64,000 nt of DNA from positions 1 through 64,000 of the forward strand of contig JAJFHV010000020.1 in the NCBI GenBank assembly GCA_021775415.1. Direction: 5' to 3'. The notes under the pieces are model-generated. The model was not told where the DNA came from, searched no databases, and worked only from the letters and a program-made list of their open reading frames with translations. Source of the DNA: Hyphomicrobiales bacterium (GTDB lineage Bacteria > Pseudomonadota > Alphaproteobacteria > Rhizobiales > Rhizobiaceae). Numbering within the stretch: position 1 is the first letter of the stretch; the number at the start of each line of letters is the position of its first letter. Positions 9,578 through 54,562 of this stretch are shown piece by piece. Both the position numbers and the translations under genes were made by a program.

Positions 9578-10924
9578 ATGACCAAAAAATATTTCGGTAC
9601 GGATGGCATCAGGGGGAAAGCCAATAGTTTCCCAATGACAGCTGATGTCGCGATGAAAGTCGGGATGGCAGCTGGTATTGCGTTCAGGCGCGGCAATCAT
9701 CGCCACAGGGTGGTGATTGGCAAGGATACGCGGCTTTCCGGTTACATGATCGAAAACGCACTGGTTGCAGGTTTCACCGCAGCCGGCATGGACGTGTTTT
9801 TGCTTGGACCTGTTCCAACACCTGCTGTTGCAATGCTGACACGCTCAATGCGTTCCGACATTGGCGTCATGATTTCTGCCTCCCATAATGCCTATCAGGA
9901 CAATGGTCTTAAATTGTTTGGCCCGGATGGCTTCAAGCTTTCTGACAAAATCGAGGCAAATATCGAGGCGCTTATCCATGAGGATTTGAACACGAGACTT
10001 GCTTCAGCTGATGAGATTGGTCGGGCAACCCGGGTTGAAGGCGTAGATGCACGCTATATTGAATTCGCCAAGCGAACTCTGCCACGCGATCAATCGCTGG
10101 AAGGAATTCGCATTGTTGTCGATTGCGCAAATGGAGCCGGATACAAAGTCGCGCCTGAAGCACTTTGGGAACTTGGAGGAGAAGTTATACCCATCGGTGT
10201 CAATCCCAATGGTTTTAACATCAACCTTGATTGCGGTTCCACGGATACCGCTGAGCTTTGCCGCAAGGTGCATGAAACCCGTGCGGACATCGGTATAGCA
10301 CTCGACGGGGATGCGGACCGGGTGATCATCGCTGATGAAAACGGTAATATCATCGACGGCGACCAGATAATGGCTGTTGTCTCGGAATTCTGGAATAACA
10401 GATCCAAATTGTCCGGCGGCGGGGTTGTCGCAACGGTAATGTCCAATCTGGGTCTGGAACGATTTTTGAACGACAAGGGCCTTGAGCTTGCCCGCACCCA
10501 GGTTGGTGACAGGTATGTAGTCGAACATATGCGTTCGCATGGCTATAATCTGGGCGGAGAGCAATCTGGTCATATGATCATGTCTGATTTTGCGACAACC
10601 GGTGACGGGCTGGTCGCTGCACTACAGGTGTTGGCTGTCGTCCAGGCAACCAACAAGCCGGTCAGTGAAGTCTGCAAAAAATTTGAGCCGGTGCCGCAGT
10701 TTCTCAAAAATGTTCGCTACAAGTCCGGCAAGCCACTTGAGGAAAAGCAAGTGGTTGAAGCCATCAAGGAAGGTAAATCCAGACTTGGTGATACGGGTAG
10801 ACTGGTGATCCGTCCTTCGGGAACTGAACCGCTTATCCGGATTATGGCTGAAGGCGATGATGAGGTGCTGGTGCGCGCGGTGGTGAACGACATTGCCGGT
10901 ATTGTGAGCAACATCGCTGCCTGA
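9578..10924 (+). CDS. glmM: Phosphoglucosamine mutase GlmM
   Basis: Converts glucosamine-6-phosphate to glucosamine-1-phosphate for UDP-GlcNAc synthesis. The product of about 448 residues begins with the family start [11 protein letters not shown], has the phosphoserine loop [12 protein letters not shown] near residue 100, the metal site DGDADR near 240, the sugar-binding GGEQSGH, and the phosphate-binding [10 protein letters not shown] near the C-terminus. ATG at 9578 is chosen because it fits the family N-terminus; an in-frame TTG at 9539 would add 13 unconserved residues. A terminator follows. Confidence 0.96.
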
Positions 10925-44540: not shown

Positions 44541-45842
44541 TTGAACGATCAAACAAACATTGAGAAGCCAGACCCAAAACCAATCAGTGTGGACCTGTTT
44601 CAGCGTAGGGCTAACAAAACCACCCAACTAGTAAACAATTCAGATGAAGAGTTTTTTGTTGATGGAAAACATCGTTGGTTTAAGTTTGAATTTGAATCCC
44701 CAGTAATTGTTCAAAAAATAATTGTTGAAACTGAAGGTTATGGTGACCAAAGCAAAGTTAGCTTTGAATTCTTTCACGTTGATCAAAGCACCTATGGAAG
44801 CCGCGTAGATTTTTCAAACGGTAGTTTTTCCGTTGAGTTAAACAAATTGATTTCCGGCTTTCGCTTCAGACCGGATACCAAATTTTTGTCACTGAAAAAT
44901 CAAAAAATCAAAAAAGTTGTTGTTGTAGGCTATACCCCGGAAGAATTGGCTAATCTTGAGGAAGCCATCCATTTGATGGATCAAAGAGCTGAGGAGATTG
45001 ACCAAAAATATCAAGGGTTAGAAACCAAAGAAAATGATACCCAGCAGAAGGTAGATGAGTTCACCGAACAAATTGAAGAGCTTAATCAATCAAAAGCTGA
45101 CTTGGATAATCAAATAGGTGAAACGCAAAAACAAATTGAAAAGTTAGAGCGTGAATCAAAAGCTAGCGGTAAAAAAGCGGAAGAAGTGTCTTCGATCGTC
45201 GCCGATCTTGAAGCTGAGGTAAATCGCAATAGAGATGAACGACGCACCCTTGCTGACGAAATATCAAAAAGTGAATCTCAACTAAATCGAATTAAGCAAG
45301 AAATTGGACTCTTTCCAAGCGAGATTGCCGGTTTTGTCAAAGAGGGTCGGCGAAATATTTGGGCTTATCTAATTTACGCATCACCTTTTGCAGCCGCTAT
45401 CCTGTATGTGACCTATCAGTTGTTCTATAGCGCTGTTGATCTCACTCATATACTGAGCAATGAAAACGTAGATGTATGGACTGTAATACTTACTCGCCTA
45501 CCATTTGTTGTAGTCGCGGTTACAATATTACAAGTTTGCGGTGTCGTTGTGTCGCGACTTGTAGGTGAAATTGTGCAAATTAACACACAACGATTGAATC
45601 TATCCAAACTGAGTATAATTGCAAAAGATGTCGCCAACGCCTCTGCGGCGGATATTGAACTAACGGCAAATGAGCGTTTTGAGATGGAAACACACTTGAA
45701 GATGGAGCTCTTGCGCGAACATATGAAGTTCTACATTGGAGAGAATTATGCTTATCAAGGTGGCCGTGTTGGTCGACTTGTAAAAGATTGGTCAAGCAGG
45801 AAGAAAGAGGAGCCTTCAAATCCGGACGGCAAGGAAGAATAA
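44541..45842 (+). CDS. Membrane coiled-coil protein with beta-rich N-terminal domain
   Basis: Unrecognised. The 433-residue protein has a beta-rich N-terminal domain (about 12-135) whose pattern HRWFKFEFESPVIVQKIIVE resembles discoidin-like (F5/8 C) folds, then a coiled coil (about 140-270), two transmembrane helices (about 278-302 and 318-345) and a charged C-terminal tail. The start is the TTG at 44541. It is AT-rich compared with the core genes and is the first cargo gene after the integrase. A sensor-plus-membrane layout is compatible with a defence or surface role, but nothing in the sequence proves either. Confidence 0.75.
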   Translation: MNDQTNIEKPDPKPISVDLFQRRANKTTQLVNNSDEEFFVDGKHRWFKFEFESPVIVQKIIVETEGYGDQSKVSFEFFHVDQSTYGSRVDFSNGSFSVELNKLISGFRFRPDTKFLSLKNQKIKKVVVVGYTPEELANLEEAIHLMDQRAEEIDQKYQGLETKENDTQQKVDEFTEQIEELNQSKADLDNQIGETQKQIEKLERESKASGKKAEEVSSIVADLEAEVNRNRDERRTLADEISKSESQLNRIKQEIGLFPSEIAGFVKEGRRNIWAYLIYASPFAAAILYVTYQLFYSAVDLTHILSNENVDVWTVILTRLPFVVVAVTILQVCGVVVSRLVGEIVQINTQRLNLSKLSIIAKDVANASAADIELTANERFEMETHLKMELLREHMKFYIGENYAYQGGRVGRLVKDWSSRKKEEPSNPDGKEE

Positions 45843-46034
45843 GCGACTAAAAACCAAATCTAGGAATGTATGGGCGAGCACGTGACGCCTAAAATTTACT
45901 CCAGTGGAACTTGCAACAATGCAGGCTAATCATTATTTTTTGTTGAGTCTGTTAAAGAAACCTCCGGTGTGCCCGGTTGCAAATTCGAAAGTAATTGTCA
46001 CCAAACTGTGTCGTGTTTCCTTTAATCGGTAACG

Positions 46035-47204
46035 TCAGATAAGTGCTTGAGTTTTTGCGGAAAATGGCTTCGTCTGCACTCCGTCGATCATGAGTTTCAC
46101 ATACATTTGGAAATTAGGAAGATTGATTAGATCACGCGGCTTAGGAACATCGGCGCCAAATTGCTTGGCCAAAATGGGTGCGTCCGTCGCCCCAACTCGG
46201 AACGAAATCAACGATCCAACATTGCCCAAGATAGCTTCAAAAATATCTTTGCTGATCTGAGAAGTGAATTGCTGAGAGATTATTAGCGCCAATCCATATT
46301 TGCGAAGTTCAGATAGCATGTCAGCAAACGCCGATGTGGTGAAGGAATGAAATTCATCAATGTACAGGTGGAAGGGACTGCGCTCCTCTTCTGGTTGATC
46401 AGCCCGGCTATGGGCCGACAGCGCAAAGTTTGAGACAATCATCCCGCCAAGGATATTGGCGATGTCTGCTCCTAGTTTGCCCTTGGCGAGATTGACTATC
46501 AGGGTTTTGCCTTCATCCATGATCTTTCGAAAGCGCAGTGGTTTTTGGGGTTCGCAGACGGCTTGCCGCACAAGTGGATTGGCTAAGAAGCCCCCCAATT
46601 TGTTGGCAATTGGAGCGACACCATCTACAGCAGTCTTGTAGTTCATGGCTGGGAATTCCTTGGTCCAGAATGCCCGCACATAGGGATCGGAGACAAAACT
46701 CAATGCTTCGTATCTAAAGGATCGATCCAAGAACATTGGAATGATGTCCTGAAGATTTGATCCTGGCCGTTCCAGCAACGCCAGTAAAGCATAACGAAGC
46801 AAGTGTTCCATCCGAGCACCCCAGGCATCGGACCATTGCTTCTTTAGTGTATCAATCAGACCAGAGGCTACCAATGGTCTATACTCGGCTGACACATGGG
46901 TGAGGGGATTATATCCATATGAACATTCAGGATCAGCCGGATTCCAATATACTGTCTCACAATTCACAGCCGCTCTAACCGACTCGGCTAAATCGCCGTG
47001 TGGATCAATCACACAAAACCCTTGGTTAGATTTAGAGTCTTGGTTCATCAATTGAAAAAGCAGTGTCGATTTACCCGTTCCGGTTTGACCGATTATGTAT
47101 TGATGAAACAGTCGGTCGGCAGGTTGAATACCAAACGTCTTGTGTGGGTGTCTGCCGAGCGTTTGACCAATTATTGTGAGCTGTTGTTTTGCGTAGTTCA
47201 CCAC
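46035..47204 (-). CDS. VirD4/TraG-like ATPase, soluble type
   Basis: The 389-residue protein has Walker A GQTGTGKST at residues 39-47, CVIDPHGDLAE (motif seen in TraG/VirD4 and HerA relatives), Walker B FHLYIDEFHSF and LALIISQQFTSQI (sensor region). There is no transmembrane helix, unlike true coupling proteins. The start is a GTG at 47204 that overlaps by 7 nt the stop of a recombinase-gene remnant, so it was once the next gene of a recombinase operon. It probably moves DNA or acts as a motor in element transfer or maintenance. Confidence 0.88.
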   Translation of the reverse strand: MVNYAKQQLTIIGQTLGRHPHKTFGIQPADRLFHQYIIGQTGTGKSTLLFQLMNQDSKSNQGFCVIDPHGDLAESVRAAVNCETVYWNPADPECSYGYNPLTHVSAEYRPLVASGLIDTLKKQWSDAWGARMEHLLRYALLALLERPGSNLQDIIPMFLDRSFRYEALSFVSDPYVRAFWTKEFPAMNYKTAVDGVAPIANKLGGFLANPLVRQAVCEPQKPLRFRKIMDEGKTLIVNLAKGKLGADIANILGGMIVSNFALSAHSRADQPEEERSPFHLYIDEFHSFTTSAFADMLSELRKYGLALIISQQFTSQISKDIFEAILGNVGSLISFRVGATDAPILAKQFGADVPKPRDLINLPNFQMYVKLMIDGVQTKPFSAKTQALI

Positions 47205-47352
47205 TCAATTGTGCGTTGCTCATGCTTTTCTGCATAGACGGCCCCAATCTTTGTAGCTGCGTCTGATTGAGAAAGCTCGATCAACGCCTCCAGTTGTTGA
47301 TTTCGCAACTTAGACCTAGCTCGAGAAGTGGGTCGATAAGAGTACAAGACAT
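47198..47352 (-). pseudogene. Remnant A: detached 3' end of a serine recombinase gene
   Basis: On the minus strand an open frame reads YRPTSRARSKLRNQQLEALI then ELSQSDAATKIGAVYAEKHE and ends at TGA (47198-47200). It matches the last 40 or so residues of the intact recombinase encoded at 49221-50762 (YRPTSRTLPKLRNQQLETLI, ELSQSEA). It lacks any 5' part; a stop lies upstream in frame. Its end overlaps the start of the TraG-like gene. The 22-bp core at 47292-47313 is identical to those in the other two copies. Confidence 0.85.
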
Positions 47353-47510
47353 CCTTAAATCAGGATATTGCGTTTCGGACGGTTAGACAAAATTAACTGG
47401 GAAAATTCTATCAGAAACATATTCATGGGTCGAATTTCTCTAACCTTAGGGAACATCGAGAAATTCTCACAAATGTTGTATCATGAGTGGGAATCAACTA
47501 ATTTATTCCT
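47205..47510. other. Junction region with the remnant A repeat
   Basis: No independent gene. It contains remnant A (to about 47352) and then about 160 bp of AT-rich sequence leading to the TIR-like gene. The homology to the recombinase gene fades close to 47345, which should mark the inner junction of the TIR/RipA module. Confidence 0.6.
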
Positions 47511-47909
47511 ATGAGCACCAATTCAAAAGTACGCGTATTTGTTAGCTTTGACTACGATCATGATAAAGATCTCAAGGATTTACTCATTGGTCAGTCAAAG
47601 AATGACGATTCACCGTTTGAGATATCCGATTGGTCAGTAAAACAAGAACTGACTGGTGATTGGAAAGAGAAGGCAAAAAAGAAAATCAAGCAGTCACAGG
47701 TTGTTGCGGTTATTTGTGGGAAACACACCGATTCAGCGACGGGTGTGAGTGCTGAGGTGGGCATCGCTCAAGGTGAAAAAATCGACTATTTCCTGCTAGC
47801 TGGAAGAAGTGATGGTGGAAACAAGAAACCGAAAAGCGCAAAATCATCAGACAAATTGTATAAGTGGACGTGGAAAAATTTAAAATCGCTAATTCATGGC
47901 GGAAGATAA
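47511..47909 (+). CDS. TIR-like (ThsB/DUF1863-type) protein
   Basis: The 132-residue protein begins KVRVFVSFDYDHDKDLKDLL, the betaA strand and box 1 of TIR-like proteins, followed by FEISDWSVKQ, a SQVVAVICGKHTDSATGVS segment and AEVGIAQGEKIDYFLL, where the Glu corresponds to the catalytic or signalling position. This pattern fits the Thoeris ThsB / DUF1863 type, which makes NAD-derived signals on phage infection. It overlaps the next gene by 14 nt, so the two are coupled. Flanked by recombinase-gene remnants A and B. Function as an antiphage sensor is inferred. Confidence 0.82.
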   Translation: MSTNSKVRVFVSFDYDHDKDLKDLLIGQSKNDDSPFEISDWSVKQELTGDWKEKAKKKIKQSQVVAVICGKHTDSATGVSAEVGIAQGEKIDYFLLAGRSDGGNKKPKSAKSSDKLYKWTWKNLKSLIHGGR

Positions 47910-48405
47910 TAACCAACTTAAATTACTGAACACCGATGCAGATAGCTACGGTGTTGAATACAATCAACACTTGCTTGAACAGTATAAATTGTATGTGTCT
48001 AGCGCTGAAAATATCAGTGACAGAAGGCAAAGAGCAAACACCTATTTTATTGCCCTCAATGCTGCATTGATCTCTTTCTATGGAGCGTCTAATCAATTCG
48101 ACCTCCTACGAGATGGCCTTGTGCCTCAAATCACTATTTCAATATTGGGTTTGATTGTTAGCGTGGTATTTTGGTTCTTAATCAGAGCATATAAGCAACT
48201 TAACACCGGCAAGTTTTTGGTGATCCATGAAATAGAAAAGGAGCTGCCTTTGTCAATTTATCGCTATGAATGGGAAAAACTTGAAAAAGGTGAAAATTGG
48301 AAAGCATATTTTCCGTTTTCCCATATCGAGCTGACGATACCAATTGTTTTTGGTGCCTTTTACGTCCTGTTCGCGATTAAGGCAGTTCATTCGTTTTTCT
48401 GTTGA
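47896..48405 (+). CDS. RipA-like small membrane protein, TIR partner
   Basis: The 169-residue protein starts with a soluble helix (about 20-45, LLEQYKLYVSSAENISDRRQ) then RANTYFIALNAALISFYGAS as the first membrane helix, a second at about 78-98 (ISILGLIVSVVFWFLIRAY) and a third near the C-terminus (about 143-166). The helix preceding membrane helix 1 resembles the family of RipA-type oligomeric membrane proteins, often encoded next to TIR proteins. As a membrane effector opened by the TIR product it would parallel Thoeris variants with membrane effectors. The ATG at 47896 lies inside the TIR gene. Confidence 0.7.
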   Translation: MAEDNNQLKLLNTDADSYGVEYNQHLLEQYKLYVSSAENISDRRQRANTYFIALNAALISFYGASNQFDLLRDGLVPQITISILGLIVSVVFWFLIRAYKQLNTGKFLVIHEIEKELPLSIYRYEWEKLEKGENWKAYFPFSHIELTIPIVFGAFYVLFAIKAVHSFFC

Positions 48406-48559
48406 ATGTGACATTGTTATCCATGCCATTCATCACCTCAAACACTTCATTAGACTGAGTAAGATCACTTAACTCCAAGAGTTGTTGATTTCGCAACTTA
48501 GATCTAGTTCGAGAAGTGGATCGATCAGGGTCACAAAAGGACGTCTTGACAACAAGCAT
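48377..48559 (-). pseudogene. Remnant B: second detached 3' end of a serine recombinase gene
   Basis: A 60-codon minus-strand frame reads SFCDPDRSTSRTRSKLRNQQ, then LLELSDLTQSNEVFEVMNGM, and stops at 48377. The first part matches the intact recombinase (LFGDPYRPTSRTLPKLRNQQ); after the core it diverges (LLELSDLTQ versus LETLIELSQ). Its 22-bp core at 48480-48501 is identical to copies A and C. It overlaps the 3' end of the RipA-like gene by 29 nt. Tails that differ after an invariant core are what recombination at the core would leave. Confidence 0.85.
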
Positions 48560-48612
48560 AAAGATTGGATTTTGCTTACATGTCTCAATCCAAGTGAGTT
48601 AAAATAACTTTT

Positions 48613-49185
48613 ATGGGAAAAACTCCGTCGAAAAATCAACTTGAAACACATCCGAATTATTGGAATGGCATGGAACACATGCTTTTTTTCAAATCTTTGA
48701 TGAGCGCGTTATCCAGTGGTCCTGAGCGGTTTGCTGAAGGCATTGAAAGGCGCGACGCCTGGTTAGCTGACAGAAGCTACCATTTTCCAGCTTTAATGCT
48801 CATTGGCAGCTTTTCGTATTTGGAAGGCGAGCTAAAGCATGACTGGATAAATTTATTTGGTGGAGTTCACAAACGTGAACTATATGTCCTCAGACATATA
48901 CGAAACGCAGTGGTACACCATGCGGGTAACTTGCATCAATTGCGTACGATTCCACCTAAACGAATAAACGCACGACGTGGCAGACCAGCTAACATTTCAA
49001 CATACGTCCGCAGGTTTGCGTCTGATTTGCGTCGCGGGCAAGTGAAAGACCAAAAAGGTACAAAGATAGTTGCTTATTTTGAGGTTTCGAGAGCCGGTGA
49101 AGTTAGGTTGAACGACATAGGATACTCAAGAATAAGAGTATTGTGCCACGCCGTTTTGGCAAACGCCGGAAAGTTCTCGAGCTAG
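48613..49185 (+). CDS. HEPN-like protein (RxxxxH motif)
   Basis: Unrecognised as a named family. The 190-residue protein is mostly helical with FPALMLIGSFSYLEGELKHD and then ELYVLRHIRNAVVHHAGNL, where RNAVVH is the Rx4H motif of HEPN RNases in the usual C-terminal-helix context. A basic segment follows (PPKRINARRGRPANISTYVR). It stands alone between recombinase-gene copies B and C, opposite in strand to the recombinase. HEPN proteins often act as toxins or abortive-infection RNases. The assignment rests on one motif and helical context. Confidence 0.6.
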   Translation: MGKTPSKNQLETHPNYWNGMEHMLFFKSLMSALSSGPERFAEGIERRDAWLADRSYHFPALMLIGSFSYLEGELKHDWINLFGGVHKRELYVLRHIRNAVVHHAGNLHQLRTIPPKRINARRGRPANISTYVRRFASDLRRGQVKDQKGTKIVAYFEVSRAGEVRLNDIGYSRIRVLCHAVLANAGKFSS

Positions 49186-49220
49186 TAGATCGTTTTTTGG
49201 TCTCAATGCCTGCAATAAAG

Positions 49221-50762
49221 TTATTTACTTGAAATGCGGAGCTCAATCTCCGCTATCGCTTCTGACTGGGAAAGCTCAATCAGCGTCTCCAGTTGTTGAT
49301 TTCGCAACTTAGGCAAAGTTCGAGAAGTGGGTCGATAAGGGTCACCAAAGAGGCCAGACAAGGCAGTTTCGGTCCGAATCAGCCAATCTGCTGGCTCTAG
49401 ATATACGTTTTTTCCTGACACAATACGGTTCGAGGTTGTGGATATGAGTAATTCCCGTTTTTCGGCCGGATTGGCAAAAATATAGGTGACTGCAAGGTTT
49501 TTTATCAGTTCGAGAAATTTTTGAATCCTATTCAAATCACACCGCTTTTGGGCGGCTTTTTCCGCTTCTTCCTCCAGCCGGTTTTGCTCCATGAGCAGTT
49601 TCTGCTTTCGTTGATTATAGACCTCTTGGTCGATGAGGCGGTCGATCAGCGCATCAGTCAGGCTTTCCAGTTTGTGCGCAGTATTGGAAATTTGAAGCGC
49701 GATGGTCTTACCTTCGTCTTCCTCAACTCTAGCTGCGCACCACTCCGAAAATACCTTCGCCAGACTGGCAACATCGGCCTCCTTCAGACGAACACGGCTG
49801 AGCGTTGTTTTGACAGATTGTTCTATCGAATCTTCCCGCACCGTTTTGGTCGGGCATTCTCGCGTCTGGCAGCGATAATAGACTCGGGCCTTTTGCAACT
49901 CCGGCGTCATGGCGGCATTGCAATGGCCGCATCGAAAAAGGCCGCGATACGTATGATTGTGTTTGGTGGTCTTCTTACCTGATTTTCCCAAGCGAACCTG
50001 TTGCACATTTTCAAACAGGTTTACTGTGATAATTGGTTCGTGGATTCCCTTGTGTACTGCACCGGTTCGTCGGATGCGGATGAGTCCGCAGTAAAAGGGG
50101 TTACCCAAAAAGGTCTCAAGTCCGTGTTTTGAAATCGGGCCGCCTTGACTGTTTCGCAGTCCCATTTGATCTAGTTTTGTTCGGAGCGACCGGAAAGAAT
50201 ATTGGCCGCTGGCATACAGTTCAAACGCTTGGGTTATCAGCGGTGCCTTCACTGGATCAGGTGTCTTGGGCTTGCCCCCACCATTGTCGAGGTACCCGAT
50301 CGGTGCTTTGAAGGGATAAAGTCCTTGTTTCAACCGACCGTTGATGCCTTTGATGGTTTCTTCGCGCAGGTTACGAATGTAGTCAGCGGCAATGACGGCT
50401 TGGATATCTGCAGACAAGCGACCCCCACGGGAGCTAAAATCTAGAGTTTCAGTAGCAAAACAAACCTCAATACCAGCGTCGGACAAGTCACCAATTTTGG
50501 CCCAGTCGGCAAAGTTGCGAGCTGATCGATCAATCTTGTGCATGATCAATCCCTCGGCTTTACTCTTGCGCAAGGCCTTGATCATGTTTGTGAAGATGGG
50601 GCGCCCGGATTTGGCAGCGGTTTCTTTTTCTTCAAACCACTGCGTTATCGCCAATTGATTTCGCTCAGCATACGCGGTGATGGCCTCACGTTGGGCTTCC
50701 AGCGAAACGCCTTCGCCTTGTTTGGCGGTAGAGACGCGAGTGTATCCAAAGCAAGATTTCAT
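49221..50762 (-). CDS. Large serine recombinase
   Basis: The 513-residue protein has a resolvase catalytic domain with the nucleophile Ser11 in GYTRVSTAKQGEGVSLEAQ and the MHKIDRSARNFADWAKI motif, a recombinase domain (FKAPIGYLDNGG; LDQMGLRNSQGGPISKHG), a zinc ribbon (FRCGHCNAAM, CQTRECPTK) and a coiled coil before a C-terminal tail. The tail segment (residues about 477-500) is the part repeated as remnants A and B. Its ATG overlaps the TGA of a 58-codon gene upstream (ATGA). It may integrate or excise cargo modules at its own 3' end. Confidence 0.93.
   Translation of the reverse strand: MKSCFGYTRVSTAKQGEGVSLEAQREAITAYAERNQLAITQWFEEKETAAKSGRPIFTNMIKALRKSKAEGLIMHKIDRSARNFADWAKIGDLSDAGIEVCFATETLDFSSRGGRLSADIQAVIAADYIRNLREETIKGINGRLKQGLYPFKAPIGYLDNGGGKPKTPDPVKAPLITQAFELYASGQYSFRSLRTKLDQMGLRNSQGGPISKHGLETFLGNPFYCGLIRIRRTGAVHKGIHEPIITVNLFENVQQVRLGKSGKKTTKHNHTYRGLFRCGHCNAAMTPELQKARVYYRCQTRECPTKTVREDSIEQSVKTTLSRVRLKEADVASLAKVFSEWCAARVEEDEGKTIALQISNTAHKLESLTDALIDRLIDQEVYNQRKQKLLMEQNRLEEEAEKAAQKRCDLNRIQKFLELIKNLAVTYIFANPAEKRELLISTTSNRIVSGKNVYLEPADWLIRTETALSGLFGDPYRPTSRTLPKLRNQQLETLIELSQSEAIAEIELRISSK
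49255..49345 (-). repeat. Recombinase 3'-end repeat, copy C (candidate att site)
   Basis: About 80 bp of the intact recombinase 3' end that recur at 47258-47345 (A) and 48440-48533 (B) in the same orientation. The invariant core is 22 bp, at 49291-49312 here; inside it GTTGTTGATTTCGCAAC is a partial palindrome. Copies A and C agree beyond the core on both sides; B agrees with both upstream of the core (in gene direction) but differs downstream. Distances between cores are 1188 bp and 811 bp. Confidence 0.85.
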
Positions 50763-50935
50763 GGACTCAGGGGATTATCTCCAGAGTCTACCACGTCATC
50801 GGAATCCGTCGAATCCAGCTCAGGCTGATCAGGATCATCTGGCCACGGCCAGGTACCTTCTCGCTCCATGCGCTCATAAATACGTTTGCAGAGTGCCAAA
50901 TAGCGCTCTAGTTCTGGTGGAATGTTGGGTTTCAT
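50759..50935 (-). CDS. 58-residue acidic protein coupled to the recombinase
   Basis: Small gene on the minus strand. It starts at ATG 50933-50935 with KPNIPPELERYLALCKRIYE, continues RMEREGTWPWPDDPDQPELD and ends in an acidic Ser/Asp tail. Its TGA overlaps the recombinase ATG (ATGA), so the two are translated together. The N-terminal half looks like a folded helix with a Trp-Pro-Trp turn; the tail is disordered. It could be a directionality or specificity partner of the recombinase, but I do not recognise the family. Confidence 0.75.
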   Translation of the reverse strand: MKPNIPPELERYLALCKRIYERMEREGTWPWPDDPDQPELDSTDSDDVVDSGDNPLSP

Positions 50936-51283
50936 GAAAGAATTTTAGCGCCGATACGTCTTAATAAAAGACGGTCCCATTTTGATCTGACGCAACTGGG
51001 GCCTACTTGCATCGATTTTAGATTCCGGTAGCCTTAAAGACACTAAACACTTAGCCACTAATACCACCACCAATTCGCTATGGGTTGTATATGGAGGGGT
51101 TTCACCCCTCCTGAGTACTACTTTCCCATGGCGGATTGGTGGTTTTGTGTTCTTTGGTGAAATCCAAAGTGGCCCAACTGTTGCTGGTGTTGAGTTGCGA
51201 AATTCGCAACTGGGGACGTCTACCGCCACCGTGCCCGCGGATATAAACTCGGAGCTGGGATTATCAATTTAAACCCACAACGT
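50936..51283. promoter_or_regulatory. Divergent regulatory region with palindromes and hairpins
   Basis: No gene in 348 bp between the recombinase operon and the XRE gene. Contents: CGCAACTGGGG at 50991-51001 repeated at 51205-51215; a perfect GGAGGGGT-TTC-ACCCCTCC hairpin at 51093-51111; CTTTGG-N6-CCAAAG at 51152-51169; and GTTGCGAAATTCGCAAC at 51194-51210, a 17-bp palindrome about 75 bp before the XRE start. The palindrome agrees with the recombinase-gene core at 14 of 17 positions. It may be an XRE operator, an attachment site, or both. Confidence 0.65.
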
Positions 51284-51637
51284 ATGTCGCAAGCATTTGC
51301 GTTTGACCTCAAGGTTGCCCGGAAAAAGTCGGGACTGACCCAGCAGGACTGCGCTCATTTATTAGACGTGCACAAAGCCAAAATTTCACTGTTGGAGCAG
51401 GGCAAGACCCTGCCGAGTGTATTGGAGATTTGCACGTTATCGATCCTCTACGGGAAATCATTTGAAAGCCTGTTTGGAGGATTGATGGAGGAGGCCCATC
51501 GGGGACTCAAGGACCGGCTCACCACCCTGCCGGAGATATCAAACCGGTGGATTGGTCGATTTATCCGTCACAATACCCTGAACCGTATCGCAGCCCGTTT
51601 GGATGAATATGATCCAACTGATCATGGCTCGGCATAG
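51284..51637 (+). CDS. XRE-family HTH regulator
   Basis: The 117-residue protein has one Cro/C1-type HTH (about 8-62: LKVARKKSGLTQQDCAHLLD, HKAKISLLEQGKTLPS) and a helical C-terminal part (RLTTLPEISNRWIGRFIRHN). Such regulators control excision and cargo genes in integrative elements. It overlaps the RuvC-like gene, and the palindrome at 51194-51210 upstream is a good autoregulatory operator candidate. Confidence 0.88.
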   Translation: MSQAFAFDLKVARKKSGLTQQDCAHLLDVHKAKISLLEQGKTLPSVLEICTLSILYGKSFESLFGGLMEEAHRGLKDRLTTLPEISNRWIGRFIRHNTLNRIAARLDEYDPTDHGSA

Positions 51638-52088
51638 CGTTCTGGCATTTGCTGCGGCAACAGGCCGGGTTGGTTATGTCTTTTTAGTAGATGGTGTCCT
51701 TCGGGACTGGAAAATCTCCAAGAAAGCCAGCCAATCGCCGCAGGCAGCGCAAGAATACGCTACCAAATGGATCGAGCTCTTTAGGCCCAACGTAGTCATA
51801 ACGGAAAAGATTAAAGACGAATCTCGTAAAGGAGAGCAAGCCAAAAGCCTGATCGCTGCAATCGCCAGTGTGGCCGAGCAGCATCAACTTTTGGATGTGG
51901 TGGTGGAACGCGTGCAAGCGTTCAAGAACAAGTATGAGGAAGCGCGCGCTTTGGTTTCGCACTTCCCTGATCTGCGACCTCAGTTGCCAAAGCAGCCACG
52001 CTGCTGGCAGTCTGAGCCATTTAGTACCACCTACTTCGAAGCACTGGCATTGGCGCTGGTGGTCATTGATCAACCGAGGACATCGTAA
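51624..52088 (+). CDS. RuvC/RNase H-fold protein lacking the first catalytic Asp
   Basis: Product of 154-161 residues. The order of elements fits the RuvC-like RNase H fold: strand 1 HSVLAFAAATGRVGYVFLVD, a strand with acidic residue in FRPNVVITEKI, a helix with basic residues, and a C-terminal helix STTYFEALALALVVID containing Glu. In active RuvC nucleases strand 1 carries a catalytic Asp (DPG); here the position reads AAA, so it may be inactive or use other residues. ATG at 51624 or 51603 are both possible. It overlaps the XRE gene by 14 or 35 nt, so the two are coupled. Confidence 0.6.
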   Translation: MARHSVLAFAAATGRVGYVFLVDGVLRDWKISKKASQSPQAAQEYATKWIELFRPNVVITEKIKDESRKGEQAKSLIAAIASVAEQHQLLDVVVERVQAFKNKYEEARALVSHFPDLRPQLPKQPRCWQSEPFSTTYFEALALALVVIDQPRTS

Positions 52089-52116
52089 CTCAGTCAACAG
52101 AGCTTACTCACTAATA

Positions 52117-52145
52117 AAGGCGGGTTAGTACCTAACTCGCCTTTT
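52117..52145 (+). terminator. Rho-independent terminator after the XRE/RuvC-like pair
   Basis: AAGGCGGGTTAG and CTAACTCGCCTT pair with one G-T around TAC, followed by TTCTT. It lies 28 nt after the stop. Confidence 0.85.
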
Positions 52146-52440
52146 CTTAATGGCGCTCTCCCAAGCCCACAGTCGTCCGGCGCGACCAGTCACGCTTGAA
52201 GTATCGAAAAGGGCCGAAGCGAAGCGTAGGATGGCGAAGCCATTGACGGGGCAAGCCTGACGGCTCAAGTCCAAGGGAGTGCATTGCCAACACTTCTTTC
52301 CAAGCGGAGCGCGGTAGGCGCCAGGGATCAAGCCCGGATGGCCAAGACAGTATAGTAGCGGAGCAGTTTACTGGCTTGGTGCGCGCGAGCCCGTTCCGCG
52401 ATAGCGGAGGTGCAAAACCAGGATTTGTTTTAAGTTTACA

Positions 52441-52468
52441 ATGTCTGCTTTGTGCCAAAAGCGGACAT
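52441..52468. repeat. Dispersed palindrome (MSAFGGKADI-type)
   Basis: ATGTCTGCTTT at 52441-52451 and AAAGCGGACAT at 52458-52468 form a stem with one G-T. Same family as 158-187 and 53002-53028. With the next copy it brackets the gene at 52516-52851. Confidence 0.75.
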
Positions 52469-52515
52469 TGAGCAAACAGACTGTAACAAACATTATGGAT
52501 CTTTTTTCGGTGCTA

Positions 52516-52851
52516 TTAAATATCTGGCTGATAATTGCACGGGCCGAATGACGTAGGTTTTTCCAAACTGGCCAAGACTGAAATTCCTTGGGAAATCAAT
52601 AAATTTACTTGTGCACTTTTTTGTATTTCAATTTTTAACGCCGCATCCGTCTGGGCTTCCACACAATGTCGGTCTCCTGCTAGGTCAAAAATTGATCCGA
52701 TCGATTGAAAGGTTATCGAATATACGTTTGTATCTTTGTCTTCTGCATCGATATGCTCAACAAATTCGGCATCCCAATTCCTATCTTTTGATCGCTCACT
52801 AACAATAAATTGATATGTTGCAATTGCAGGTACGGTTGTAATAGAAGCCAT
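52516..52851 (-). CDS. Hypothetical 111-residue protein
   Basis: Unrecognised. The protein looks like a small folded beta-rich domain: ATYQFIVSERSKDRNWDAEF, VEHIDAEDKDTNVYSITFQS, then DAALKIEIQKSAQVNLLISQ. There is no signal peptide or membrane helix. AAGGTGA lies 6 nt before the ATG, the main evidence for a real gene. It is flanked on both sides by dispersed palindromes (52441-52468 and 53002-53028), so it may have moved as a unit. Confidence 0.65.
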   Translation of the reverse strand: MASITTVPAIATYQFIVSERSKDRNWDAEFVEHIDAEDKDTNVYSITFQSIGSIFDLAGDRHCVEAQTDAALKIEIQKSAQVNLLISQGISVLASLEKPTSFGPCNYQPDI

Positions 52852-53151
52852 TGATAATCACCTTATTGCTCAAGTAAACTCGTTTGAAGCCGTAGCTTAC
52901 TTGATTGCAATTTACATGCAAGTAGTTGCTCCACTAATATCATCTTCTTAGTCACAACCACATCGCGAGCGAACAAACATTGTGGAACGTTTCTGTAGGA
53001 AATGTCTGCTTTGGGTCAAAAGCGGAGTTTACAGTATAAGTATCTGACAAATTGAAACGCCATCAGATAGATTTACCTTGAACGCCGGGATAGAAAAAGG
53101 TTTGATGTTAACTGACTAATTTCAGGCAGCGCGAAGTAATTGGGTGGGGAA
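52852..53151. other. Non-coding stretch with a dispersed palindrome
   Basis: No gene in 300 bp. It holds the dispersed palindrome at 53002-53028 and AT-rich flanks that probably contain the promoters of the two divergent genes around it. I see nothing else. Confidence 0.55.
53002..53028. repeat. Dispersed palindrome (MSAFGGKADI-type), degenerate arm
   Basis: ATGTCTGCTTT at 53002-53012 and AAAGCGGAGTT at 53018-53028 pair except at the outer end. The loop is GGGTC. Same family as the copies at 158-187 and 52441-52468. Confidence 0.7.
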
Positions 53152-53682
53152 ATGACCGACACAAGTGGAATTGAAGAATCGCCCGTACATGCCGGATATC
53201 GACGCAATATGCAGCATGTGCTTCGCCGGGTAGACATTGTCGCCGGAGGCCATCGCAGAATCCTCAACGCATCCGTGATTGCATGTATTGTGATTGTAGT
53301 TGCGATATTTTTCGCTGATGTGTTTCTGGGGCCGCTGATTTGGCTAAAAATTCTCGGGATAATTCTGCTGCTCACTTGGTTAGCCGCATTTAGCCGATTT
53401 CTCGCGCAATTTAATGTGCCAATTACCTGTTTGGGTTGCGATCAACAAATCAATCTCAATCAGGATTGGGTTTGCGGTTACTGCGATGACGCAAAAAGTC
53501 CGCTTCTGATGCAAACATATGTTCGTTATCATGTGCCGTTGGAAAAGTGCATGGGATGCGGAAACCACGCCACGGCGGTTGAGTGCCCGTATTGTAATAC
53601 AAACGTGGTCTTTGATATTGATCGGTTCAACATTGAAGAACAGGCTGGCACCAAACGCTTTGGCGTTGCCAGATTTTTGTAG
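53152..53682 (+). CDS. Membrane protein with zinc-ribbon pairs
   Basis: Unrecognised. Product of about 176 residues: a charged N-terminus, two adjacent membrane helices (about 40-60 and 63-85) and a cytosolic part with four CxxC pairs, CLGC and CGYC, then CMGC and CPYC, which should bind two zinc ions. A start at 53152 follows GGTGGGG; a GTG at 53140 is possible. It is followed 10 nt later by a coiled-coil membrane gene that starts with TTG, so both form one operon. Confidence 0.75.
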   Translation: MTDTSGIEESPVHAGYRRNMQHVLRRVDIVAGGHRRILNASVIACIVIVVAIFFADVFLGPLIWLKILGIILLLTWLAAFSRFLAQFNVPITCLGCDQQINLNQDWVCGYCDDAKSPLLMQTYVRYHVPLEKCMGCGNHATAVECPYCNTNVVFDIDRFNIEEQAGTKRFGVARFL

Positions 53683-53692
53683 GGGGATGTAA

Positions 53693-54562
53693 TTGTTTAT
53701 TGATCCGTATGTTCTGGTAATTGCCATACTTTTGATGGTTATCGGCTCAAATTTTGGTGCACCCTACTCGGCAAATCGCTTTGTGATTTTTGGAGTGGCA
53801 TTAGCACTCCTCGTCTTATCCTTCACCTTTGAGTATCTAAAACATGTTGCGGAAGAGAAGCAAATAGCCATCATTGCTGCTGAAAACGAACGAATACGTT
53901 TGGAGGAGGAAGCGCAAAAAGCCGAGGCAGCAAGGCTCCAGGCAGAAGCCGACAGGCTAAAAGCTGAAGAGGCAGAACGCCAAGCCGCTAAACTAAAGAA
54001 ACAACAAGAAGCAGCCGCAGCGCGGCAAAAGGAGCAGCAAGCGGCCTTACTGCTCAAACAGCAAGAAGAGGATGCAAAGAAAGCCGAAAGATCGCAGCTG
54101 CGCTCGGTTTCTTTCCATCAATACAATGCGAACTTACAAGGCCAACGAAGAACAATATTCAACGCCGAGCGGGATTGTCTCTATTATGATGCGCCGCGCA
54201 ATCGACGAAATCTGAACTACATCAAATTGCAGGTCGCCGCGGATGTTGCCAAGTTTCAATTTACAAACTCCAGCTACCGAAGAGTTCGAACGCTAATTGT
54301 TTACTACGATGACATGGAGCAGAACTGCCAAGCTTCATTTCGAGCCCTATACACTGAAGGTCATCTTGGGCAACTCAATCTAGGGCCACAAGATTGGCAA
54401 CGGGCGGTACGCGTTCGGCAGGATGGCGCTATTTGGCCAACCGAAAATAGCCAAACCGTGTCAAATGACCTAACTGAGGATGCAAAGCCGGGCGAAGTCA
54501 TTGGAGAAATTGTCGGGGATGCGGTGAACAACGTATTGAACAACATTTTCAAAAAGAAATAA
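53693..54562 (+). CDS. Membrane-anchored coiled-coil protein
   Basis: Unrecognised. The 289-residue protein has two N-terminal membrane helices (about 4-21 and 28-47), a long Ala/Glu/Lys/Gln coiled coil (about 50-140) and a C-terminal domain (about 145-260) with DCLYYDAPRNRRNLNYIKLQ and TLIVYYDDMEQNCQASFRAL. The start is a TTG with AGGGGGA 6 nt upstream. It is paired with the zinc-ribbon membrane protein. The C-terminal domain may be a small surface or periplasmic sensor. A hairpin at 54563-54582 follows the stop. Confidence 0.72.
   Translation: MFIDPYVLVIAILLMVIGSNFGAPYSANRFVIFGVALALLVLSFTFEYLKHVAEEKQIAIIAAENERIRLEEEAQKAEAARLQAEADRLKAEEAERQAAKLKKQQEAAAARQKEQQAALLLKQQEEDAKKAERSQLRSVSFHQYNANLQGQRRTIFNAERDCLYYDAPRNRRNLNYIKLQVAADVAKFQFTNSSYRRVRTLIVYYDDMEQNCQASFRALYTEGHLGQLNLGPQDWQRAVRVRQDGAIWPTENSQTVSNDLTEDAKPGEVIGEIVGDAVNNVLNNIFKKK

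Follow-up and report, generated by a model that had tools for sequence, protein, structure and literature searches.

We report here a palindromic DNA element upstream of a small XRE regulator gene, together with a related element in the end of a neighbouring large serine recombinase gene, and find that the two co-vary from locus to locus. From comparison of these sites across related loci, we consider it rather probable that the XRE protein occupies the promoter of its own gene and, at many of the loci, also the attachment arm of the serine recombinase, working in the manner of the coliphage 186 protein Apl. The features are collected in Table 1, with positions numbered along the window, by which we mean the whole 64-kb stretch of DNA that was analysed.

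Table 1. Genes and sequence elements around the palindrome and the adjoining cassette array
Feature	Positions	Strand	Remarks
TraG/VirD4-like ATPase gene	46035..47204	-	Accompanies the module in many relatives
Third recombinase-end copy	47259..47343	-	Beside the TraG-like gene; 17-mer 47293-47309; core is CGAG
Cassette 1	47511..48405	+	TIR (ThsB-like) gene 47511-47909 and 8xMP membrane protein gene 47896-48405
Second recombinase-end copy	48480..48533	-	17-mer 48481-48497
Cassette 2, 190-aa protein	48613..49185	+	Neither Pfam nor PADLOC gives a match at E <= 0.01
Large serine recombinase, 513 aa	49221..50762	-	Pfam Resolvase, Recombinase, Zn_ribbon_recom
Recombinase 3' end, presumed attachment region	49234..49344	-	Block CCACTTCTCGA, then arm with CTAAGTTGCGAAATCAACAACT; 17-mer 49292-49308
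Small ORF, 58 aa, overlapping the recombinase start	50759..50935	-	Beside the recombinase in many relatives
CGCAACTGGGG, left copy	50991..51001	+	Half-site upstream of a promoter-like stretch running into the hairpin
Long hairpin between the divergent genes	51066..51143	+	Compensatory changes
Perfect 9-1-9 palindrome AGTTGCGAAATTCGCAACT, proposed XRE operator	51193..51211	.	Centre 81.5 bp upstream of the XRE start codon
8-1-8 part of the palindrome, GTTGCGAAATTCGCAAC	51194-51210		Inside 51193-51211
CGCAACTGGGG, right copy	51205..51215	+	Operator half and part of the spacer toward the CTA element
GTCTAC element	51218..51223	+	CTA at 51220-51222 is the anchor, counterpart of the recombinase-end CGAA
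TATAAACT, -10-like element of the presumed XRE promoter	51242..51249	+	4-locus alignment and 8-locus listing; promoter role presumed
XRE/HTH_3 regulator, 117 aa	51284..51637	+	Pfam HTH_3
RuvC-like (RNase H fold) protein, 161 aa, co-encoded with XRE	51603..52088	+	AlphaFold model, Foldseek

A conserved palindrome upstream of the XRE gene

The palindrome lies between two divergent units, with the 58-aa ORF and the recombinase gene on its left and the genes for XRE and the 161-aa protein on its right. A first-pass annotation, made from the sequence alone, had described a perfect 8-1-8 palindrome 75 bp before the XRE gene; the palindrome is there and extends to 9-1-9, and its upstream position stands, the distance being 73 bp to the ATG at 51284 rather than 75. 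No other perfect 8-1-8 palindrome occurs in the window, but chance would already give about one (64000/4^8), so that the palindrome proves nothing by itself. What lifts it above chance is its conservation in relatives, and a chance palindrome was rejected on this ground. The reported agreement of its reverse complement with the recombinase-end 17-mer GTTGTTGATTTCGCAAC at 14 of 17 positions was reproduced, and in the opposite orientation AGTTGCGAAATTCGCAACT and AGTTGCGAAATCAACAACT are identical at 16 of 19. Exact copies of the 17-mer start at 47293, 48481 and 49292 in the window, and five matches with up to three mismatches are present against 0.37 expected, comprising the three recombinase-end copies, the palindrome and a site at 10115, far from the locus. 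The overlapping repeat CGCAACTGGGG likewise occurs twice, as described.

The XRE protein matches PF01381 at 30.8 bits (cut-off 23). With at most one mismatch, the palindrome occurs at three places in the source genome; two of these lie 73 bp before the genome's only two XRE matches (E <= 0.001), and the third lies within a 505-aa ORF. The second XRE gene, on contig C2, encodes a paralog of about 75-76% identity and has its palindrome at the same 73-bp distance.

The locus set comprised 42 loci found via the RuvC-like protein in public genomes, 14 further stretches and two own loci, 58 in total, in 55 of which the XRE gene could be read together with sufficient upstream DNA. Among these 55, the XRE proteins closest to the window's are those of L041 (81% identity), L040 (80%) and C2, with the next at 60%, and all three loci at or above 75% identity keep (G/A)TTGC-N7-GCAAC with its centre at 80.5-81.5. 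The window's three nearest XREs also retain similar recognition helices along with similar half-site letters, a comparison made without a statistic, with a regular expression that found no recognition helix in 19 of the 55 loci.

Anchoring at a CTA element that stands about 63 bp upstream of XRE was possible in 32 of the 55 loci and not in the other 23. Across the 32 anchored sites (the anchors of L043, L044 and L050 being hand-chosen), the dyad score peaks at centre +18, with 3.78 of 6 against a mean of 1.44 at other centres; 13 sites reach at least 5 of 6 and the remaining 19 fall below. The letters of the strong dyads differ among loci (GTTGC/GCAAC, TGTGC/GCACA, ATATGC/GCATAT, TATCAT/ATGATA) and the position of the dyad is constant, and we therefore read the element as a dimer operator whose letters change with the protein. 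The palindrome upstream of the window's XRE gene looks like the operator of the XRE regulator, and is proposed here as such.

Co-variation of the XRE site and the recombinase arm

To compare the two sites, the XRE-side CTA was set against the recombinase-end CGAA and 30 positions were scored, an anchoring idea that came from inspecting the sequences. In a free-anchor test, in which all candidate anchors were admitted with equal freedom for own and mismatched pairs, own pairs scored 12.42 of 30 against 9.85 for mismatched pairs in 24 loci, a difference reached in 0 of 50,000 permutations; for the 10-nt spacer by itself the scores were 4.50 against 3.48 (p = 4e-5, 24 loci). These are the anchorable loci among 38 with both genes, the other 14 being left out. 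The loci are mutually related, and relatedness lifts mismatched scores along with own scores. An initial test on 27 loci gave p = 1e-4 and an earlier test on 21 loci gave 11.90 (own) against 9.06 (mismatched) of 30, several recombinase cores having been hand-chosen in both; in the fixed-anchor tests, the anchors of L043 and L044 were also chosen by hand.

The correspondence is sharply located. Among 41 registers, a clear excess appears at register 0 only (+0.130, the others reaching at most +0.036; 19 loci). Block tests on the same number of loci place it in the spacer (p = 2e-5), half-site A (p = 0.002) and half-site B (p = 2e-5), with no significant locus-specific similarity in the middle (p = 0.42), upstream of the core (p = 0.39) or beyond (p = 0.50). 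The single register and the confinement to spacer and half-sites lead us to regard the likeness as a genuine, evolving correspondence. Shared base composition was rejected as the cause of the co-variation, with flanks and registers other than 0 showing no clear excess. The recombinase arms have their own dyad peak at the same +18 centre (2.64 of 6 against 1.52 elsewhere, 33 loci), and 2 of the 33 arms score at least 5 of 6.

Individual loci vary in the strength of the match. Own pairs reach at least 14 of 30 in 10 of the 24 loci, with L042 and L111 at 22, L041 and L046 at 19, L056 and L072 at 18, the window at 17, L100 at 16, L045 at 15 and L044 at 14; the other 14 loci score lower. The own pair of L043 reaches 19 in the 21-locus test, only with a 2-nt shift. 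At L111, ATATGC-N7-GCATAT stands at the XRE site and the recombinase arm alike, and at L042 an unanchored blastn search with the recombinase end retrieved the XRE-upstream site. The suggestion that the regulator and the recombinase may share recognition sites, or have competing ones, thus gains support in a sharper form, as co-variation in one register that takes in the spacer and both half-sites, with dyads whose centres lie 18 nt away from the core, or from the element resembling it, and with a presumed binder that is considered below.

Which protein reads the sites

In 19 loci, the XRE sites track XRE identity (partial p = 0.029) but show no significant dependence on recombinase identity (p = 0.15); the arms track recombinase identity weakly (p = 0.049), with XRE identity not significant (p = 0.14). 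The similarities of arm and XRE site remain correlated after control for recombinase identity (rho 0.45, p = 6e-4), and their link also holds after control for XRE (p = 2e-4; both in 19 loci). The tracking of XRE by the XRE sites, together with the dyad, is the reason for reading XRE as binding both sites, probably beside the recombinase. XRE would accordingly be the presumed binder of both composite sites, and the recombinase would contact the spacer.

The main rival is that the recombinase itself reads the composite site twice, recombining at its gene end and repressing the XRE operon, with XRE having no role at the palindrome. A serine recombinase domain is expected to sit on the spacer next to the core, and this core-adjacent 10-nt spacer does co-vary (p = 2e-5), as the arms do, weakly, with recombinase identity. 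We nevertheless judge this reading unlikely, given that the XRE-side sites track XRE and not the recombinase, and that C2 shares the operator of the window while the arms of its recombinase differ. Nor is a dyad within a single arm expected of a recombinase half-site, and 3 of the 13 strong XRE-side palindromes belong to loci without a recombinase match on the stored DNA, which for L040 is a 3-kb contig only and for L066 a stretch that stops in the TraG-like gene.

Binding of both sites by XRE has its clearest exception in the C2 locus, where the operator is kept but the four recombinase-end copies vary and carry no operator-like element, the own pair scoring 8 of 30. The first-pass annotation had held that related islands retaining the XRE gene without likeness between operator and recombinase core would speak against shared recognition; C2 is one clear case of this kind, and other loci are also without a match. 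As C2 and these loci show no match, the link between XRE and the arm is real but not universal. Repeated losses or gains of the link, or a change of recombinase, may lie behind this. C2 is also exactly what plain autoregulation predicts, with the palindrome as an XRE operator only and the likeness of the recombinase end due to chance or to the conserved protein tail LRNQQ. The window's pair taken alone is compatible with chance, its own arm ranking 4 of 24 for the window's XRE site, and by eye the arm partly encodes a partly conserved tail LRN.Q. Against such an account, which we think has a small chance of being right, stand the co-variation across the 24 loci and its single register, and a protein-coding constraint would not tie an arm to the promoter site of its own locus.

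The recombinase gene end and the cassette array

In the three window copies of the recombinase gene end, the block CCACTTCTCGA is invariant and is followed by A, A and G, respectively; beyond it and a variable stretch come 22 invariant arm columns, CTAAGTTGCGAAATCAACAACT, which include the operator-like stretch, and the flanks vary. The 17-mer GTTGTTGATTTCGCAAC, which had been taken for the recombinase core, is probably not the crossover core but an arm element, as it lies in the second invariant block, about 10 nt from the conserved CGAA, in the coding end of the gene. By eye, the recombinases of relatives are conserved until the CGAA-containing stretch and divergent after it. The repeated gene ends would represent att sites. 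In the cassette array (47204-50762), each insertion appears to supply the recombinase gene with a new 3' end. A blastn search with the recombinase ends of 38 readable loci gave a further match in 8; that of L042 is its own XRE-upstream site, so that extra recombinase-end copies are present in 7 of the 38, those of L060 and L107 being only 28-30 bp long.

The repeated ends surround the TIR/8xMP and 190-aa cassettes and adjoin the TraG-like ATPase gene. The TraG/VirD4-like ATPase has a PADLOC mad8 match (3.4e-20). Elsewhere, the cargo between copies includes an AAA_15/AAA_21 ATPase at C2, and Schlafen AlbA_2, an AAA_21/SMC-like ATPase and DUF3800 at L038; five of the eight ORFs tested at these two loci have a Pfam match and three have none. 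Going by family names only, the cargo has a defence-like flavour.

Each arm could also be an XRE-controlled promoter that activates the captured cassette, copying the operator-spacer--35 layout of the XRE promoter, and both window cassettes do read away from the copies in the required direction. We give this idea little credence. Among mechanically called ORFs, the large cassette ORFs of C2 include one antiparallel and two parallel to the recombinase, and the L038 DUF3800 gene between two copies runs parallel; because cassette ORFs in these other arrays point both ways, a pure cassette-promoter role is unlikely. By eye, the window copies also lack a clear -10 element at the corresponding distance. 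Finally, the earlier proposal that the site upstream of XRE serves as a fourth att site bounding the array, cut and joined by the recombinase, is very improbable: although an arm element and spacer with the expected likeness start from a core-like CTA at the right distance, the invariant block CCACTTCTCGA is absent at 51190-51290, the other side of the core has no locus-specific similarity (p = 0.39), and operator, promoter and XRE gene are contiguous, without insertion, in the four closest loci.

The RuvC-like protein and the long hairpin

The AlphaFold model of the 161-aa protein has a mean pLDDT of 89, and its top Foldseek matches are RuvC (best E 3.2e-6, TM about 0.6); the protein has no Pfam or NCBIfam family above cut-off. 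In its relatives, the motif I aspartate, one of the catalytic residues of RuvC, seems to be replaced by alanine or serine.

The hairpin between the divergent genes was aligned in 14 loci, giving 26 consensus pairs, 17 of them changed on both sides, and a fold z-score of -7.7. Its base, ACCAC/GTGGT, and an apex resembling GG..GGTTTyACC..CC are constant, and the aligned form is found in some of the loci and not in all. A search across 45000-54000 returned no Rfam family at gathering score, its four weak matches all falling below. The hairpin is possibly a new structured RNA, or else a cruciform for the RuvC-like protein. From the left half-site CGCAACTGGGG, the hairpin RNA may be under XRE control as well; the half-site's form CGCAA(C/T)TGGGG is present in the window, C2 and L040 and not in L041. 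A promoter-like CTTG, then TAGCCT, can be seen by eye between the left half-site and the hairpin.

Comparison with known systems

The partner of Apl is a tyrosine integrase, whereas the partner here is a large serine recombinase. Apl of coliphage 186 is a dual factor, serving as recombination directionality factor and transcription regulator (PMC7498355), and the likeness would lie in a small element-encoded DNA-binding protein that occupies both a promoter control region and an attachment site. The Apl sites are direct repeats one turn apart (PMC7498355), whereas the sites here form a dyad, GC-N7-GC. The present system would resemble an Apl-type dual factor in its working but, by the tests made, is not a member of that kind, because its sites form a dyad rather than direct repeats and its partner is a serine recombinase.

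Other systems share single traits with the locus. XafT, an XRE-type Xer recombination activation factor (NCBIfam NF040522, VC1465 family), is likewise an XRE-like protein acting on site-specific recombination; it acts with Xer tyrosine recombinases and is not known to have an operator within an att site, and the window's XRE scores well below the cut-off of the family (E 0.0058, 16.7 bits, cut-off 70). HTH_3/XRE autoregulators with a palindromic operator have in common with the locus the HTH_3 domain and a conserved palindrome before the protein's own gene, but here a related site lies also in the recombinase attachment arm. Integrons, with their IntI tyrosine integrase and attI site, and SCC elements (CcrA/CcrB), whose site lies in rlmH, resemble the array in having inserted genes beside a recombinase. 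In contrast, the array-side recombinase here is of the Resolvase/Recombinase type and not IntI, and the site is in the recombinase gene's own end, not in attI or rlmH. The NCBIfam matches of the recombinase are to XisF, followed by CcrB and CcrA, all below cut-off (CcrB 87.8 bits against 900, CcrA 77.4 against 700, CcrC 40.8 against 900).

Distribution, proposed mechanism and significance

Among genomes sampled within the order, 11 of 397 have a match to the RuvC-like partner, and among those sampled within the class 5 of 385 do (E <= 1e-8, the source genome being counted in both). A pattern scan of viral contigs found no relatives, and among plasmids there is one record, from Sulfitobacter. 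Searches of open-licence literature, judged by titles and abstract openings, turned up no paper that describes the element, a result that holds for those searches and not for print at large.

In the mechanism that we propose, an XRE dimer would sit on the dyad just upstream of the -35 position of the XRE promoter and set the XRE level. A second composite site, made of the 10-nt spacer and a dyad whose centre is 18 nt away from the core, would lie within one att arm at the recombinase 3' end, where XRE would serve as an accessory or directionality factor, aiding or blocking the recombinase at the adjoining core; this effect on recombination is one that we infer. Cassettes would accumulate at the att site in the recombinase's own 3' end. 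A wider reading, which we put forward tentatively and with somewhat more doubt than belief, is that the locus represents a new cassette-capture platform, in which a serine recombinase collects (often defence-like) genes in its own 3' end, and XRE, co-encoded with a RuvC-fold protein and a long hairpin, governs exchange through an arm operator that is also the operator of its own expression.

The factors that steer large serine integrases usually bind the integrase and not DNA. If the proposed mechanism is true, an operator within the arm of the attachment site would control direction in a different way, encoded in the DNA, that can be read from sequence by co-variation, and it would hint at how an apparently defence-like cassette array at the end of a recombinase gene stays in check.
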